The notes beneath the pieces were generated by a model, which had not been told where the DNA came from, did not search any database, and saw nothing but the letters and a program-made list of their open reading frames with translations. Shown here in pieces: positions 56,904-64,000 of a stretch of DNA of 64,000 nt. Numbering within the stretch: position 1 is the stretch's first letter; each line of letters starts with the position of its first letter. The DNA is from Pseudoclavibacter sp. AY1F1 (lineage in GTDB: Bacteria; Actinomycetota; Actinomycetes; Actinomycetales; Microbacteriaceae): positions 310,001 to 374,000 of the forward strand of contig NZ_PSTQ01000001.1 of the NCBI RefSeq assembly GCF_002931075.1, read 5' to 3'. The position numbers and the translations under genes are program-made.

Positions 56904-57533
56904 ATGACCCTCCAGCGAATCCAGCAGCCCGATCTCGGGAGCCGTGCGCCGGGCGTCAAGAAGGACTTGCAGGGTGGACTGTTCCACCGGCCGAGGTTCC
57001 TCCGTGGCCCACGCACCGAGCGGCCGTTCGACGCGCCCCAGCTCTTCACGGAGCGTCTTGTGCTCCGCCCCCACACGCTCCGCGACGCCGACGCCTGGCA
57101 CGAGATCGTGTCGGACACCGAGGTGGTCCGCTACCTGCACTGGAAGCAGCGCGACCTGGTCGAGGCGACCGAGCACCTGAGCCGCCGCACGACCCAGACG
57201 AGGCTCTGGCAGACGGGGGACTTCATGGCGCTTGCCGTCGAGCGCGACGGGAAGCTCATCGGCGACGTCTCCGTGCACCTGCGTGAAGTCGAGCTTGACC
57301 ACCGTTCCGCCGAGCTCGGGTGGATCATGCACCCGGGATGCGCGGGTCAGGGCTTCGCGACTGAGGCGGCGGATGCGCTGGTCGAGTACCTGCGCGACTA
57401 CGTTGGCGTGAAGCGCGTGCTGGCGGTCATGGATCTGGAGAACGGGGCCTCCTATGCCCTCGCGAGGCGCCTCGGCTTCTCTGAGGTCGCCCGCTCTGAC
57501 GACTCGAGGACCACGGCGCTTGATCTGGTCTGA
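56904..57533 (+). CDS. GNAT-family N-acetyltransferase (RimJ/RimL type)
   Basis: A 209-residue GNAT acetyltransferase. The domain begins at about residue 48 with 'LFTERLVLRPHTLRDADAWHEIV', the RimJ/RimL-type start. The acetyl-CoA motif is 'IMHPGCAGQGFATEAADAL' (Gly-x-Gly with the usual spacing), followed by 'RVLAVMDLENGASYALARRLGF', the family's conserved C-terminal part (in fragments here). The first 45 residues are extra and basic. It may acetylate a ribosomal protein N-terminus or a small substrate; unknown. The start is ATG 56904. Its 3' end overlaps dnaE2 by 82 bases on the opposite strand. Confidence 0.88.
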   Translation: MTLQRIQQPDLGSRAPGVKKDLQGGLFHRPRFLRGPRTERPFDAPQLFTERLVLRPHTLRDADAWHEIVSDTEVVRYLHWKQRDLVEATEHLSRRTTQTRLWQTGDFMALAVERDGKLIGDVSVHLREVELDHRSAELGWIMHPGCAGQGFATEAADALVEYLRDYVGVKRVLAVMDLENGASYALARRLGFSEVARSDDSRTTALDLV

Positions 57534-60500
57534 GCGGAGCTGACGCCACGCGTCCGCTCTGCTGACGCGGCTGCGCTGGCCGCGCTCGACGTCGCCATGA
57601 GCTGTGCGACCTCCAAGAGGTCCCACGCCATGTCGCCCGTCACGGAGATACCTCTGGCACCCGACCTGCGCGTCGTACCTCGCACGAGCATGTAGTGCGT
57701 GCGGAACACGCGATTGCCTGCGCGCTCCTGGGCGTCGTGGAAGAACACGGTCTGCGAGAGGCCCGTGCTGTCGTCGAGGGAGACGAACACCGTGCGGCGT
57801 CCGCCGCGCATGGGTGGCGTGTTGGTTGCGCGCCGGACTCCGGCGATGAGCACCTCTGTGCCGCCGGGCAGGTCGATGAGGGTGCTCGCTGGAACCACGC
57901 CGAGCTGCCGGAAGAGCGGGAAGAAGCGCTCCATCTGGTGGCGGCTCACGCCGAGGCCAAGCTCCTGCAGCTCGAGATCGGTCTGCGTCTTGCCGTGCAG
58001 GTCCATCGCGGTCACACCGCGCAGCTGGGGCACGGGGAGCGCAAACGCGAATGCCTGCTGGTGCTCTGGCACCCGTGTGGGGGTGCTCGTGAGTGAGCGG
58101 ATGAACGCGAGCAACTCGTGCCGCCTGCGCGGTTCGTAGTCGATGAACGCATCGAGCGCCCCGACCCTCGCGAGGGAGTCCAGGGTGCTGCGTCGCGGCC
58201 GCACTCTGGCCCTGAAGTCGGCGAGCGAGTCGAACGGCTGGTGCTCCGCGACCCGGTCGCGTTCCGCCGAGGACATGCCGCGCACATCCGCGAGGGACAT
58301 GCGCACCCCGTCTCGTCCGTCAGGGAGCGGCTCGACCGTGTACTCGAGGCCCGAGCGCTGCACGTCGATCTGCAGGAACGGGATGCCGAGGTGCCTGGCT
58401 TCGGCGACGATGAGGTCTTTGCCCCACATGCCGGGGTCGTGGGTGAGGAGTCCCGCCCAGAAGTGCGAGGCGCGGTGGGTCTTGAGCCAGGCGCTCTGGA
58501 AGGTGGGCAGGGCGAACGCCGCGCCGTGGGCCTTCGCGAAGCCGAAGCTGCCGAAGCCGGCGAGCACTTTCCAGGATCGCTCGATGATGTCGGGCGGGAA
58601 CCCGCGCTCGGCGGCCTTGCCTCGCACCAGCTCCTCGATGCGTGGCACGAGCTCTGGCTTCGCAAGCCACCGCCGGTACACGTCGGCCAGCTCGAGGCCG
58701 CACCCGGTGAGCTCGTCGAAGATGCGCATGACCTGCTCGTGGAAGACGACGACGCCTTTCGTCTCGAGCAGGATGGGCTTGAGCCTCGGATGGATGTAGT
58801 CCGGCATGACCTCGCCGTGGCGCGCTCTGAGGAAATGGAGGGGCATGTTGTTCTGCATGGGGCCGGGCCGGAACAGGGAGATGTCGATGATGAGGTCGTT
58901 GAACACCTTCGGCTGCAGCTTCCCGACGAGCTCCATCTGGCCGGGGCTCTCGACCTGGAAGATGCCGAGGGTCTTCGTCGAGCGGATGGTCTCGTAGGTC
59001 GCCTCGTCGTCGAGGGGCAGCGCGTCGAGGTCGAGCTCCTCGCCGCGGGTGCGTTTGAGCTCCTTCACGGCGTGGGCCATGGCGCTCTGCATGCGTACAC
59101 CGAGGATGTCGAGCTTGATGAGGCCCATCGGGTCCATATCGTGCTTGTCGAACTGGCTCATGGGCAGGCCGATGCCCGACATCTGCACGGGAGTACGGTC
59201 GAGCAGGGAGATGTCGGAGAGGATGACGCCGCACGGGTGCACGGAGATGTGCCTCGGCAGGGAGTCGAGCCGCTCCGTCGCCTCGACGAGCACGTCGAGC
59301 TGGCGCGAGCGGCGCACCTCCTCGGCGAACTCCCGAAGCTCGGGCTTCTCAGCGAGGGCCTGCCGGAACCGCTTCGCGGAGAAGCGCCACAGCTCCTTGG
59401 CGATGCGGTCGACCTCGCCGTCCGCGAGCCCGAGCGCGAGGCCCGCGTCGCGCACGGCGCCCCTTGAGCCGTACGTGTTGACCATCGACATGAGCGTGAC
59501 CCGCTCGCCGCCGAACTCGTCGAAGATGCGGTGGTACACGCGGTGGCGTTCTGCGCTCTCGACGTCGAGGTCGATGTCTGGCAGCGTGCGTCGCTCGTCG
59601 GAGAGGAAACGCTCCCAGATGAGCCCGAGGGAGACGGGTTCGACGTGGCTCGTGTACAGGAGGTAGTTGAGCAGCGAGCCGACCCCTGACCCCCTGGCCT
59701 GCACCCGAACACCCATGTCCTTGATGAGCTCGACGACATGCGAGACGGTGAGGAAGTACGGGGCGAAGCCCAGCTTGCGCACGGTCTTGAGCTCGTGCGC
59801 GAGGCGGTCGTGCAGCTCGCGCTCGTGGGCGGTGGAGACGCCGGGGTAGCGGGCGGGGATCGCGGCCTCCGCCTTCGCCCGCAGCACCTCGAACGGGTCG
59901 TCGTGGATGCCGAAGCGCGTGACCTCCGGCATGCGCGGGGTGCCGATCCCCGCATCCCGTTCGAGGTCGATGACGCAGGCGTCGGCGAGCGCCCTCGTCT
60001 GAGTGAGCAGTTCGTCGGCTGCCGAGGCGTCGTGCCCGCCCGCATCCACGACCATGCGGGCGACCTGCCGCATGAGGCTCGCCGGTTTGAGCCACGCCTG
60101 CGCCGTCGGGGCCAGCTCGATGTCGTCGAGCGCTCGCCGTGCTCGGACGGCGTCGGCGATGTCGACGGTCGCGGCCTCTTCCGGCGAGGCGTAGCGGACC
60201 GCGTTCGTGAGCACAGCCCGCAGCCCGCACTCCGTGGCCAGCCCCAACATTCGAGTGGCCGCCGTGACGGAACCGGGGGTGCCTGGCTCGGCAAGGTGGC
60301 AGACGACCTCCACGACGAGCGAGCAGCGGGGGATTCCACGCAGCCACGTGTGCAACCGCTCTCGCGCCAGGCCGAGCTGGGCCGCGGAGGCTGCCGTGCC
60401 GACGTCGCTTGTCGGGCCGAGCAGGACGGTCAGTCTCGTGGCACCATCGTCGGTCGTCGCGAGCTGAGCCAGCCTGGGAAGCGGGATGCTCGGCTCGTGG

Positions 60501-60841
60501 ATGCCCGTCGGGGCGCTCGCGGTGGTCTCGTGGGCTGCTGACACGGCCCGGCAGAGCGCCGCGTATCCGGAACCGTTGTCACCGCCTGCCGCGAGCACGA
60601 CGACTCGTCCGAGGGGCTCGCCCCGCTCGTCGTGCACGGCGAGCTCGCTGCCGAGCACGGCCCGCAGCTTCGCGTCTCTACAGGCGAGGAGGTGCTTGAC
60701 GGCGCCGGAGATGCCGTCGCGGTCAGTGAGCGCGATCGTGTCGAGTCCCCGCTCGACGGCAGCCTGGGCGAGTACCTCGGGTGGGGAGACGGCGTAGTGC
60801 GCGCTGAAACCTGACGAGACGTGCAGGTGCGGGAAGCTCAT
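57452..60841 (-). CDS. dnaE2: Error-prone DNA polymerase DnaE2 (ImuC)
   Basis: A 1129-residue C-family DNA polymerase of the damage-inducible DnaE2 type, used in translesion synthesis and induced mutagenesis. The N-terminal PHP domain starts 'FPHLHVSSGFSAHY' and has 'IALTDRDGISGAV', the DnaE2 pattern. The catalytic Asp pair is in LPDIDLDVES, with a third Asp in 'LIKLDILGVRM'. The C-terminal OB-fold is present, followed by a 45-residue Ala/Ser/Arg tail overlapping the GNAT gene. The start is ATG 60841, 7 bases after the DUF6504 stop, so they are co-transcribed. ImuA and ImuB are not nearby. Confidence 0.95.
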   Translation of the reverse strand: MSFPHLHVSSGFSAHYAVSPPEVLAQAAVERGLDTIALTDRDGISGAVKHLLACRDAKLRAVLGSELAVHDERGEPLGRVVVLAAGGDNGSGYAALCRAVSAAHETTASAPTGIHEPSIPLPRLAQLATTDDGATRLTVLLGPTSDVGTAASAAQLGLARERLHTWLRGIPRCSLVVEVVCHLAEPGTPGSVTAATRMLGLATECGLRAVLTNAVRYASPEEAATVDIADAVRARRALDDIELAPTAQAWLKPASLMRQVARMVVDAGGHDASAADELLTQTRALADACVIDLERDAGIGTPRMPEVTRFGIHDDPFEVLRAKAEAAIPARYPGVSTAHERELHDRLAHELKTVRKLGFAPYFLTVSHVVELIKDMGVRVQARGSGVGSLLNYLLYTSHVEPVSLGLIWERFLSDERRTLPDIDLDVESAERHRVYHRIFDEFGGERVTLMSMVNTYGSRGAVRDAGLALGLADGEVDRIAKELWRFSAKRFRQALAEKPELREFAEEVRRSRQLDVLVEATERLDSLPRHISVHPCGVILSDISLLDRTPVQMSGIGLPMSQFDKHDMDPMGLIKLDILGVRMQSAMAHAVKELKRTRGEELDLDALPLDDEATYETIRSTKTLGIFQVESPGQMELVGKLQPKVFNDLIIDISLFRPGPMQNNMPLHFLRARHGEVMPDYIHPRLKPILLETKGVVVFHEQVMRIFDELTGCGLELADVYRRWLAKPELVPRIEELVRGKAAERGFPPDIIERSWKVLAGFGSFGFAKAHGAAFALPTFQSAWLKTHRASHFWAGLLTHDPGMWGKDLIVAEARHLGIPFLQIDVQRSGLEYTVEPLPDGRDGVRMSLADVRGMSSAERDRVAEHQPFDSLADFRARVRPRRSTLDSLARVGALDAFIDYEPRRRHELLAFIRSLTSTPTRVPEHQQAFAFALPVPQLRGVTAMDLHGKTQTDLELQELGLGVSRHQMERFFPLFRQLGVVPASTLIDLPGGTEVLIAGVRRATNTPPMRGGRRTVFVSLDDSTGLSQTVFFHDAQERAGNRVFRTHYMLVRGTTRRSGARGISVTGDMAWDLLEVAQLMATSSAASAAASAERTRGVSSAQTRSSAVVLESSERATSEKPRRLARA

Positions 60842-60848
60842 CGCCTGC

Positions 60849-61133
60849 TCACTCCCAGCTCAGGGACAGCTGCCAGCCGTCTGAGGCGTGGCACAGGTCG
60901 TAGAGGTGCTCGTTGTGCTGCTCGGGTGAGCCGTCGCGAACGGCGGTGACGCGCCAGAGCTCCTGATCGATGCGCTTGGAGGGGGAGCCTCCGTGCCACC
61001 ACGGCGGGAGCCTGCGGAAGTACGCCTGGGGCTGGCCCGTGACGGTATAGAGGAAGCGCTGCCACACGAAGGAGACCGGCTGCCCGTCCGGGCTGAAGGC
61101 GACATCGATGGTGTCGTCGATGACGGTTGGCAT
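60849..61133 (-). CDS. DUF6504 small protein, dnaE2 partner
   Basis: A 94-residue protein, starting ATG 61133 (MPTVIDDTIDVAF) with AAGGAGGAG just upstream, a very strong ribosome site. The sequence 'PVSFVWQRFLYTV', 'YFRRLPPWWHGG' and 'ELWRVTAV' is the DUF6504 pattern, which I remember as a neighbour of the DnaE2/ImuB cassette in Actinobacteria. It ends 7 bases before the dnaE2 start. Its conserved Trp/Arg-rich surface suggests a protein- or DNA-binding accessory factor of the mutasome; this is an inference. A LexA-like palindrome lies upstream. Confidence 0.85.
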   Translation of the reverse strand: MPTVIDDTIDVAFSPDGQPVSFVWQRFLYTVTGQPQAYFRRLPPWWHGGSPSKRIDQELWRVTAVRDGSPEQHNEHLYDLCHASDGWQLSLSWE

Positions 61134-61151
61134 GGCTCCTCCTTCACGTAA

Positions 61152-61167
61152 TCGAATCTGTATTCGA
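61152..61167. promoter_or_regulatory. LexA/SOS-like box before DUF6504-dnaE2
   Basis: TCGAAT-CTGT-ATTCGA: a 16-base palindrome with a 4-base centre. The actinobacterial SOS box is TCGAAC-N4-GTTCGA; here both half-sites carry the same compensating change. It lies 19 bases before the ATG of DUF6504 on the minus strand, where LexA would block transcription. Confidence 0.72.
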
Positions 61168-61256
61168 ACGTGAACCAAGCGTAAATCGCACCACCGACAG
61201 TGGCAACCGCAAGTCTCAGTCAGAGGGTGAGGGTGTGACGAGCGGAGCCAAGCAGC

Positions 61257-62000
61257 TCACGAGCTCGCAGCGCCGACAGGCGCCATGAGCTGCGCCCCCG
61301 TGCTCGACACCCGACCAACTTCGGGCCCGACCTCGTGCATGACCAGCGTCGAGGCGAACTCGACCCCCGCCTGGCTCGCCTCGTCGAGCAGCCCCTGCGT
61401 GCCGACCACCGACTGGTCCAGCCACTGGTCCCACAGCGCTCGCGGCAGCATGAGGGGCATACGGTCGTGGATGCCCGCCAGTTCACCCGTGGACCCCCGC
61501 GTGAGGATCGTCGTCGACAGCACCCACCTGGACGGGTCGTCGGCAGGCTTCATCGGGTCAGCCCACCACGAGTACAGGCCAGCAAACGCGATGAGGTCAA
61601 CGTCCCGTTCCGGGCGGATGAAGAACGGCGTCTTCGAACCCGCCTTCGTGCCATCCGCCGTCTTGCGCCACTCGTAATAGCCGACAGCAGGCACGATCGC
61701 GCGCCGTTGCTTCACCGGCCCCCGGAACGTCGGCTTCTCCAGCACCGTCTCGATGCGCGCGTTGAACGCCTTCGAGGAGAAGCTCGGATTCTTCGCGAAC
61801 GGGGGAAGCAGGCCCCACCTCGCGCGCTCGATGCGGCGCACCGCATCCCCTCCGCCCTTCGGCTCCGGCTCCACGACAACGGGCACCGGATCCGTCGGCG
61901 GGGTGTTGTAGGAGGGCTCAGGCAGATCGGCGCCGAGCGCCTCGATATCGAAGAGCGCCTCGACATGCTCAACAGCTGGGGTGACGTAGCGACCGCACAT
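61257..62000 (-). CDS. HMCES/YedK-like SRAP protein (abasic-site DNA-protein crosslinker)
   Basis: A 247-residue SRAP-domain protein. HMCES/YedK proteins bind abasic sites in single-stranded DNA and form a protective thiazolidine crosslink through Cys2. All key residues are present: Cys2 (MCGRYVTP), Asn80-x-Arg82-x-Glu84 in FNARIET, Glu110 in VGYYEWRK, and His178 in GIHDRMPLML. It starts at ATG 62000, so after Met removal Cys2 is the N-terminus; TAGCGT lies 6 bases upstream. The C-terminal 30 residues are less conserved. It lies next to DUF6504-dnaE2 on the same strand, with the LexA-like box between. Confidence 0.95.
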   Translation of the reverse strand: MCGRYVTPAVEHVEALFDIEALGADLPEPSYNTPPTDPVPVVVEPEPKGGGDAVRRIERARWGLLPPFAKNPSFSSKAFNARIETVLEKPTFRGPVKQRRAIVPAVGYYEWRKTADGTKAGSKTPFFIRPERDVDLIAFAGLYSWWADPMKPADDPSRWVLSTTILTRGSTGELAGIHDRMPLMLPRALWDQWLDQSVVGTQGLLDEASQAGVEFASTLVMHEVGPEVGRVSSTGAQLMAPVGAASS

Positions 62001-62069: not shown

Positions 62070-63137
62070 ATGGTCAAGCAGCGCAGTGCCCTCGAGCGCA
62101 TCCCCGCGTACAAGCAGGGCGCCATGCCCAGCACCAGCGACGTCGTGAAGCTCTCCTCCAACGAGAACCCCTTCCCGCCACTCGCCTCGGTGCGGGAGGC
62201 GGTCGCTGCCGAGCTCGAGCGCATCCACCTCTACCCGTCGATGGCCGCCCCCGAGCTCACCGCGCGCATCGCGGAGCTGCAGGGTGTCGAGCCGGAGAAC
62301 ATCGTCTTCGGTGCGGGCTCCGTGGAAGTCGCGACGCAGCTCGTGCAGGCGAGCGCCGGGGAGGGCGACGAGGTCATGTTCGCCTGGCGCAGCTTCGAGG
62401 CGTACCCGATCATCGCGATCGGAGCAGGCGCCACCCCCGTGCAGGTGCCCCTCACCGCCGACGAGCGCCACGACCTCGACGCAATGGCCGACGCCATCAC
62501 CGACCAAACCGCCATCATCTTCGTCTGCAACCCCAACAATCCAACTGGCGCGACCCTGACCCACGCCGAGGTGCGCGCATTCCTGGGTCGCGTCCCAGAC
62601 GACGTGCTGGTCGTCATCGACGAGGCCTACGAGCACTTCAACAGGCACGCGGACACCGCCATCGGCATCGACCTGTACCGCGAGTTCCCCAACGTCGCCG
62701 TCCTGCACACCTTCTCTAAGGCCTACGGCCTCGCAGGCCTGCGCATTGGCTACGCCGTCGCCCAGGCAGACGTCGCCGCGAACCTCCGCAAGGTCGCCGT
62801 CCCCTTCGCCGTCTCCGCCCTCGCCCAGACCGCCGCCGTCGCCTCACTCGACGCCGAAGCCGAGCTCGCCACCCGAATCGACGACATCGTCAGCGAACGC
62901 GCCCACGTCACGGCAGAACTCCGAGCGCAAGGCTGGGACGTCAAAGACTCGCAGGCCAACTTCGTCTGGCTCCGGCTCGGCGACGACACCCAGCGCGTCG
63001 ACGCGGCGCTCACCGAGGCCGGCGTGCTCGCACGGGCATTCCCCGGCGAAGGCATCCGCATCACCATCGGCGCACCAGAAGCCAACCGCCGCGCACTCGC
63101 CGCGCTCGCGGGAGCACAAATGGAGGCACGACGATGA
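62070..63137 (+). CDS. hisC: Histidinol-phosphate/aromatic aminotransferase (HisC/Pat family)
   Basis: A 355-residue fold-type I PLP aminotransferase. The PLP lysine is Lys217 in HTFSKAYGLAG. The family motifs 'LSSNENPFPP' (start), 'VFVCNPNNPTGA'-like segment (IFVCNPNNPTG) and 'VVIDEAYEHF' are present, with the late arginine in 'EGIRITIGAPEANR'. The sequence is close to the actinobacterial Pat (phenylalanine aminotransferase) branch; without the his operon next to it, it may be Pat rather than HisC. The start is ATG 62070. Its stop overlaps the next ATG (ATGA), so it is coupled to the GNAT-AAA+ gene. Confidence 0.9.
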   Translation: MVKQRSALERIPAYKQGAMPSTSDVVKLSSNENPFPPLASVREAVAAELERIHLYPSMAAPELTARIAELQGVEPENIVFGAGSVEVATQLVQASAGEGDEVMFAWRSFEAYPIIAIGAGATPVQVPLTADERHDLDAMADAITDQTAIIFVCNPNNPTGATLTHAEVRAFLGRVPDDVLVVIDEAYEHFNRHADTAIGIDLYREFPNVAVLHTFSKAYGLAGLRIGYAVAQADVAANLRKVAVPFAVSALAQTAAVASLDAEAELATRIDDIVSERAHVTAELRAQGWDVKDSQANFVWLRLGDDTQRVDAALTEAGVLARAFPGEGIRITIGAPEANRRALAALAGAQMEARR

Positions 63138-64000
63138 GCACCTGGCGCATTCGAGATTTCCAGCCGACGGACATGGATGCTCTGCTCCGCCTCTGGGAGC
63201 AGCACCGCAGCTCCGGAACCGAGCCCGTGTACGGACTCAGCGAGGTCATCGCGTCGACGCGAAAGGACACCGCCGTCGTCGCCGTCGCGGGGGAGAAGAT
63301 CGTCGGTGTCGCTGTGGCTCGAGCGGCCCACGACCAGGGCTGGATCGTGTTCTTCGCGACGGATGACGAATGGCGCAGGCGCGGGATCGGCGGGGCGCTG
63401 CTCGCCTCTCTCGAGCAGCGCATGGCCCAGCACGGCCTCCAGAAGCTCACGATCCTCGTGCCGGACGAGCAGACGCAGGTCGGCGCGCTCACGAAGGCTG
63501 GCTTCGCTGACAAGCGGCACCTGCGCTACTTCGAGCGGGAGATCCGCGTCAAGCAGCAGGAGATGGTCGCGCTGCGGGAGCTCGGCGGACGTATTCTGCC
63601 CTCGGACCGCTGGGACGCGATCGGCGGCATGCAGCACGAGAAGGACGTGCTCGAGCGGCGCCTCGTGCTGCCGCTCAGCGACCCGGACCTCGCGGAGGAG
63701 TACGGCGTCGTACCGCCACGCGCGATCGTGCTCTTCGGCCCTCCTGGCACGGGCAAGACGACCTTCGCGAAGGGCATCGCCTCTCGCCTCGGCTGGCCGT
63801 TTGTCGAGGTCTTCCCGTCGCGCCTCTCCGCGTCGCCGCGCGGGCTCGCCGGTGAGCTTCGTGAAACCTTCGAGCAGGTCGAGTCGCTTGAGCACGCCGT
63901 CGTGTTCATCGACGAGGTTGAGGAGATCGCGTCGCACCGAGGTGGAGAGCCGCCGTCGCCTACGCAGGGCGTCACGAACGAACTCCTGAAGATCATCCCG
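63134..64000 (+). CDS. GNAT acetyltransferase fused to AAA+ ATPase (3' end outside window)
   Basis: The first 289 residues of a protein that runs off the window. Residues of about 1-135 form a GNAT acetyltransferase domain, with acetyl-CoA motif RRRGIGGALL (81-90) and 'ALTKAGFADKRHLRYFERE' closing it. After a linker (about 140-165) an AAA+ ATPase begins: Walker A FGPPGTGKTT (Lys208) and Walker B VVFIDEVEE (Asp260-Glu261), in the Cdc48/FtsH-like class with a GGMQHEK segment before it. GNAT and AAA+ in one chain is rare. ATG 63134 overlaps the aminotransferase stop, so the two are co-translated. Function unknown. Confidence 0.88.
   Translation, partial: MSTWRIRDFQPTDMDALLRLWEQHRSSGTEPVYGLSEVIASTRKDTAVVAVAGEKIVGVAVARAAHDQGWIVFFATDDEWRRRGIGGALLASLEQRMAQHGLQKLTILVPDEQTQVGALTKAGFADKRHLRYFEREIRVKQQEMVALRELGGRILPSDRWDAIGGMQHEKDVLERRLVLPLSDPDLAEEYGVVPPRAIVLFGPPGTGKTTFAKGIASRLGWPFVEVFPSRLSASPRGLAGELRETFEQVESLEHAVVFIDEVEEIASHRGGEPPSPTQGVTNELLKIIP

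Follow-up and report, generated by a model that had tools for sequence, protein, structure and literature searches.

The 64,000-nucleotide stretch of the Pseudoclavibacter sp. AY1F1 genome analysed here (the window) ends within a gene that joins a GNAT acetyltransferase domain to an AAA module. The open reading frame (ORF) runs on the forward strand from 63134 to 64000, where it is still open and is cut by the window edge. The remainder was read from the same contig, giving a whole gene of 429 amino acids, from 63134 to about 64423 (the stop ends at L005:8424; its window position is extrapolated). The GNAT domain is N-terminal and is followed, in a single chain, by one complete module like the D2 module of Cdc48/p97. 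The motifs RRRGIG, GPPGTGKT and FIDEVEE all lie within one reading frame, and the window protein exceeds the Pfam cut-offs for Acetyltransf_1 (44.3 bits against 20.7), AAA (91.6 against 21.2) and AAA_lid_3 (27.7 against 27.2). The fusion proposed in an earlier, sequence-only reading of this DNA is thus confirmed. Its features within the window are listed below, with residue counts from a conservation set of 118 rows, near-duplicates included.

63134..64000, + strand: GNAT-AAA gene, first 289 codons (ORF and downstream contig sequence)
63134..63538, + strand: GNAT domain, residues 1-135 (Pfam; predicted element order b-a-a-b-b-b-a-b-a)
63374..63391, + strand: acetyl-CoA motif RRRGIG, residues 81-86 (sequence; conservation over rows)
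63539..63580, + strand: linker with a short helix, residues 136-149 (predicted structure)
63581..64000, + strand: first part of the AAA domain, residues 150-289, the remainder lying beyond the window (Pfam, alignment and structure comparison)
63737..63760, + strand: Walker A GPPGTGKT, residues 202-209 (K208 in 118/118 rows)
63821..63850, + strand: counterpart of pore loop 1, residues 230-239, lacking aromatics (alignment; 117/118 rows without F/W/Y)
63896..63916, + strand: Walker B strand, residues 255-261, ending in D260 and E261 (both in 118/118 rows)

A fused frame across Actinomycetota

We find that the fused frame is kept in all 80 homologous loci that were fetched (422 to 444 amino acids), these being the 80 highest scorers among at least 553 relatives of a full-length query, a set that leans to full-length relatives. 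Three overlapping draws of GTDB genomes were also searched. Matches, mostly full length, were present in 29 of 396 genomes drawn by phylum (E ≤ 1e-60), 52 of 345 drawn by class (E ≤ 1e-50) and 63 of 299 drawn by family (E ≤ 1e-40). Given the 80 fused loci and most rows of these draws, the fusion is not a frameshift artefact. The suggestion that a frameshift or sequencing error joined two genes, for which the window's genome offers nothing and frame-broken copies elsewhere offer the only precedent, is therefore refuted.

Matches that were not full length comprised one row at a contig edge in the phylum draw (G070); three contig ends (G589, G667, G554), one broken frame (G433) and one internal TAG (G483) in the family draw; and, in the class draw, a frame break near residue 316 (G710) and a second G838 copy with its domains in different frames. 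A further 13 rows of one genus in the class draw end at query residues 382-401; the three that were fetched all align to residue 429 by tblastn. Genomes carry one match each, apart from two each in G838 and G867 (class draw) and a second partial match in G211. Apparent AAA-only homologues proved to be frame-broken copies (G433, the second G838 copy, G710) or contig-edge matches, and none was confirmed among the matches within the E-value limits of the three draws. The frame-broken copies in three genomes (L170, L172, L180) are either decaying genes or assembly errors.

The spread is patchy, covering 25 of the 85 genera in the family draw. By title, the 80 loci belong to Actinomycetota with one exception, a metagenome-assembled genome labelled Acidobacteria (L051); its protein sits among Cryobacterium copies, and the contig may be mis-binned. 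Plasmid copies occur in, among others, Arthrobacter, Rhodococcus, Tsukamurella, Saccharopolyspora and Streptomyces, and of the 119 plasmid records with any match, 25 cover 80% or more of the query at a single site. Transfer is suggested because the Tessaracoccus and Flaviflexus copies branch among those of Microbacteriaceae. A phage origin was considered and rejected: 15 phage records match, none over more than 80% of the query, and all of these matches start at residue 128 or later, so that it is the AAA part that they touch.

The sequence-only reading had no name for this architecture. One exists: two Rhodococcus opacus plasmid copies bear the NCBI product name 'bifunctional GNAT family N-acetyltransferase/ATP-binding protein', so the architecture is already on record. 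The protein on R. opacus B4 plasmid pROB01 (WP_007297117.1) has the same architecture and is 48% identical over residues 1-428, and other NCBI copies are labelled merely GNAT or ATP-binding protein. We found no study of the GNAT-AAA architecture in the open-licence literature, which is weak evidence of absence. This is a conserved, apparently unstudied protein that unites two established families, the GNAT enzymes and the classic AAA proteins, and it may link modification of proteins to their remodelling in a novel manner.

A motor of the classic AAA type

The AAA half carries Walker A, Walker B, the sensor 1 Asn and the RxxR arginine fingers on an AAA fold with a lid, the hallmarks of classic (Cdc48/p97-like) AAA proteins, and K208, D260, E261, N304, R315 and R318 are invariant in all 118 rows. 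The motor has the look of a functional Cdc48-type ATPase. It shares the fold, Walker A and B, N304, RxxR and a C-terminal helix with Cdc48/p97 D2, VAT and Vps4/spastin/FIGL-1, and differs from them in having one AAA module, a GNAT domain as its N-domain and a pore-loop-1 segment that lacks an aromatic residue. It falls short of the CDC48 subfamily cut-off (TIGR01243; 135.4 bits against 802.65). A match of the AAA region to the anti-phage AAA ATPase IteA/IetA is likewise below threshold, scoring 92 bits where the model (NF042959) requires 510.

At pore loop 1, the aligned segment is ASPRGLAG. Three of the four modules compared have MWFGES, KWVGES and KYYGQS at this place, and the fourth, a D1 module, has MAGES and likewise lacks an aromatic. 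Since residues 230-239 are without F, W or Y in 117 of the 118 rows, the aromatic pore loop of threading unfoldases is missing and threading is weakened as a mode of action. The earlier description of the motor as an unfoldase is, in that sense, not well supported.

The same segment bears on whether the protein is an unfoldase feeding a protease, either of the proteasome type or ClpP. Matches to the proteasomal ATPases PAN (133 against 500 bits) and Mpa type (74.7 against 504.75) point that way, all below threshold. However, the C-terminal triplets read xRx in 118/118 rows rather than HbYX, and the 20S proteasome family is absent from the window's genome and, in the 299 host-family genomes, gives one marginal match, whereas 63 of the 299 carry the fusion (the search control was positive in 10 of 14 known genomes). 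We consider protease feeding very improbable, with the proteasome specifically disfavoured. Because the host family is without a 20S proteasome and the C-termini are not HbYX, we favour remodelling without delivery to a proteasome.

The GNAT head and its relatives

The acetyl-CoA motif Q/RxxGxG/A is present in the window protein as RRRGIG. The strict form, [QR]xxGx[GA], is found in 99 of the 118 rows, with Ser at the last place in a further eight; 11 rows depart from it, nine of them in one clade. The possibility that most members lack acetyl-CoA-binding residues, which would have undone the sequence-only reading, is thereby removed. Among 11 loci fetched later, the strict motif is intact in nine and in the frame-broken G838 copy, and G710 differs from it at the final position alone. 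We favour an active GNAT head in most lineages.

Whole-model structure searches with intact and degenerate proteins gave match lists filled by AAA chains, so a GNAT fold is assigned here from Pfam, sequence search and the order of predicted elements. Among solved GNATs, sequence comparison places YpeA (E 1.2e-6) and an Ard1-type enzyme (E 1.7e-4) nearest, both at a remote level of similarity. YpeA and the Ard1/RimI-type GNATs share the RxxGxG motif region and the domain length with this protein but, unlike it, have no motor in the same chain. YpeA is a small free-standing GNAT, and this best match, like the absence of a conserved partner gene (below), is consistent with two loosely coupled enzymes, in which the GNAT part would acetylate a small molecule and the AAA ring would mainly oligomerise it. 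We regard this arrangement as improbable, as ATPase residues identical in 118/118 rows would be needless for a mere scaffold.

Bacterial GNAT lysine acetyltransferases have been sorted into types I-V, and protein acetyltransferases with metabolite-sensing domains are known among Bacteria (PMC11254643). In types I-III the GNAT domain is joined to a second domain, as it is here, although in type III, unlike in this protein, the regulatory domain is N-terminal and the GNAT domain follows at the C-terminus (PMC11254643). The passage of that source describing types I-V names no AAA motor among them, and 'AAA' occurs 0 times in its main text (PMC11254643).

Selection on the two domains

Ratios of nonsynonymous to synonymous substitution (dN/dS) were obtained as simple Nei-Gojobori counts. 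Between the window protein and three near congeners, dN/dS was 0.018, 0.000 and 0.007 for the GNAT domain and 0.019, 0.030 and 0.031 for the AAA domain. Purifying selection among near congeners is thus strong on both domains, with the GNAT part as constrained as the motor in the window's group. Constraint on the upstream hisC-type gene is weaker (0.144, 0.141 and 0.104). Against the more distant L009, the ratios were 0.226 (GNAT), 0.211 (AAA) and 0.454 (hisC), and against L010 they were 0.126 (GNAT) and 0.134 (AAA).

The clade that holds nine of the 11 motif-departing rows behaves differently. Seven of its rows were placed in trees, where they form one side of a branch with Shimodaira-Hasegawa-like approximate likelihood-ratio (SH-aLRT) support of 100 (AAA tree) and 99 (GNAT tree), the trees coming from a quick search with long-branch warnings. 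Within this degenerate clade, dN/dS is 0.25-0.57 for the GNAT domain (10 pairs) and 0.07-0.12 for the AAA domain (nine usable pairs; the tenth had saturated dS), so the GNAT part is relaxed there but not free; these pairs come from five sequences and are not independent. A GNAT-like element order is still predicted, in a weaker model (mean predicted local distance difference test score 80.6; predicted template modelling score 0.55), and two of the five members scanned with Acetyltransf_1 fall just below the cut-off of 20.7 (20.3 and 20.1). Of the 39 genomes in its class, the clade member G309 alone has a match, and over the motif region it is identical to G200, which comes from another family; for these reasons, the G309 contig may be mis-binned. 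Four loci of the clade (L138-L141) have a neighbouring ORF in common, which we take to be a sensor histidine kinase from its resemblance to one.

AAA motors with client-binding heads are known. As a rival to an active acetyltransferase, the motor could be the machine throughout and the GNAT fold its ligand- or client-binding head, where bound acetyl-CoA, or a client, would gate the remodelling by the ATPase and acetyl groups would be transferred rarely or never. Relaxation of a domain that is nevertheless retained would fit such a head. So would the better conservation of the AAA half, whose mean identity is 0.56 against 0.36 for the GNAT part in 17 deep intact rows and 0.79 against 0.45 in the seven degenerate rows. 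However, the GNAT part is nearly frozen among near congeners, and the motif or its G-to-S form is kept in 107 of 118 rows. As an account of the whole family, a gating head is possible, though we doubt it.

Neighbouring genes

One further feature adjoins the gene in the window.

62070..63137, + strand: hisC/Pat-type aminotransferase, 355 amino acids, upstream (family matches; its stop overlaps the next start, ATGA)

Both its identity and the overlap were as the sequence-only reading had described them: the protein exceeds the cut-offs for PRK03321 (489.3 bits against 374) and hisC (312.2 against 276.55), and the ATGA overlap is seen in the sequence. The proposed coupling of the two genes did not hold up. 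Overlap in the window and adjacency in five of ten genomes of the genus would suit joint work in amino-acid metabolism, but in two further relatives the aminotransferase lies ~3.4 kb (G664) and ~3.8 kb (L009) away, its ORF finds a match in 6 of 110 loci, a set in which some flanks are short, and hisC is the less constrained gene. The overlap is real but local, with no conserved coupling, and we give a shared metabolic role little credence. The window's genome also has a second hisC-like aminotransferase (G000:C24:60776-61819; L168), 57% identical to that of the window.

Neighbouring ORFs, called by length, were common to close relatives at most, in a set of loci of which many are short-flanked. 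The seven plasmid contexts compared differ from one another, save for two near-identical Arthrobacter-type plasmids. On Rhodococcus sp. DK17 plasmid pDK2 (L128), two Hsp20 genes and a pair encoding a Dyp-type peroxidase and encapsulin are found close to the copy, which is not so on the other plasmids compared. Elsewhere in the window, three ORFs stand side by side on the reverse strand: a large one (57452-60841), DNA polymerase III alpha-like and presumably DnaE2; a small one (60849-61178); and one starting MCGRY (61257-62000), which we assume to be an SOS-associated peptidase.

A candidate GNAT-headed remodeller

Our preferred interpretation, held tentatively, is that the protein is an AAA remodeller with a GNAT head and probably works as an ATP-coupled protein acetyltransferase. 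Six subunits would most likely assemble into a ring that carries its GNAT domains on the same side. The head would bind acetyl-CoA and acetylate an amino group of a protein client, while ATP-driven ring movements would capture, reshape or release that client, which would not be passed to a proteasome. The order of events put forward in the sequence-only reading, 'acetylate, then remodel', is possible. A precedent for combining ATP hydrolysis with a GNAT domain in a single polypeptide is offered by the RNA cytidine acetyltransferases TmcA/NAT10, which differ in their helicase-type module, domain order and RNA substrate.

Several observations weigh against this interpretation. The degenerate clade has lost G84 in 9/9 and Y132 in 8/9 rows while the motor residues stay, and acetylation is therefore not needed for the motor's role in that clade. 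The predicted model of the GNAT part has no strands beyond residue 107, where the usual GNAT beta6 and beta7 would be expected. The remoteness of the YpeA and Ard1-type matches means that they do not decide between a small-molecule and a protein substrate. Finally, no partner or substrate gene was conserved nearby when nine reference loci were compared with 110 loci, in 45 loci, or in two deep groups.

A bolder version of the remodeller is an actinobacterial ATP-powered acetyltransferase ring, in which a Cdc48-like motor would open clients so that its own GNAT heads could acetylate hidden sites, independently of a proteasome, with the heads of one lineage decayed to pure client-binding domains; in this full form we think it unlikely. 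As the host family lacks a proteasome, a Cdc48-like single ring cannot be explained there in the usual way. Loss of the acetyl-CoA motif in one clade amounts to a natural experiment, setting the role of the head apart from that of the motor. In a conserved chain of this kind, with an enzyme as the head of a motor, a covalent mark would be tied directly to mechanical remodelling.
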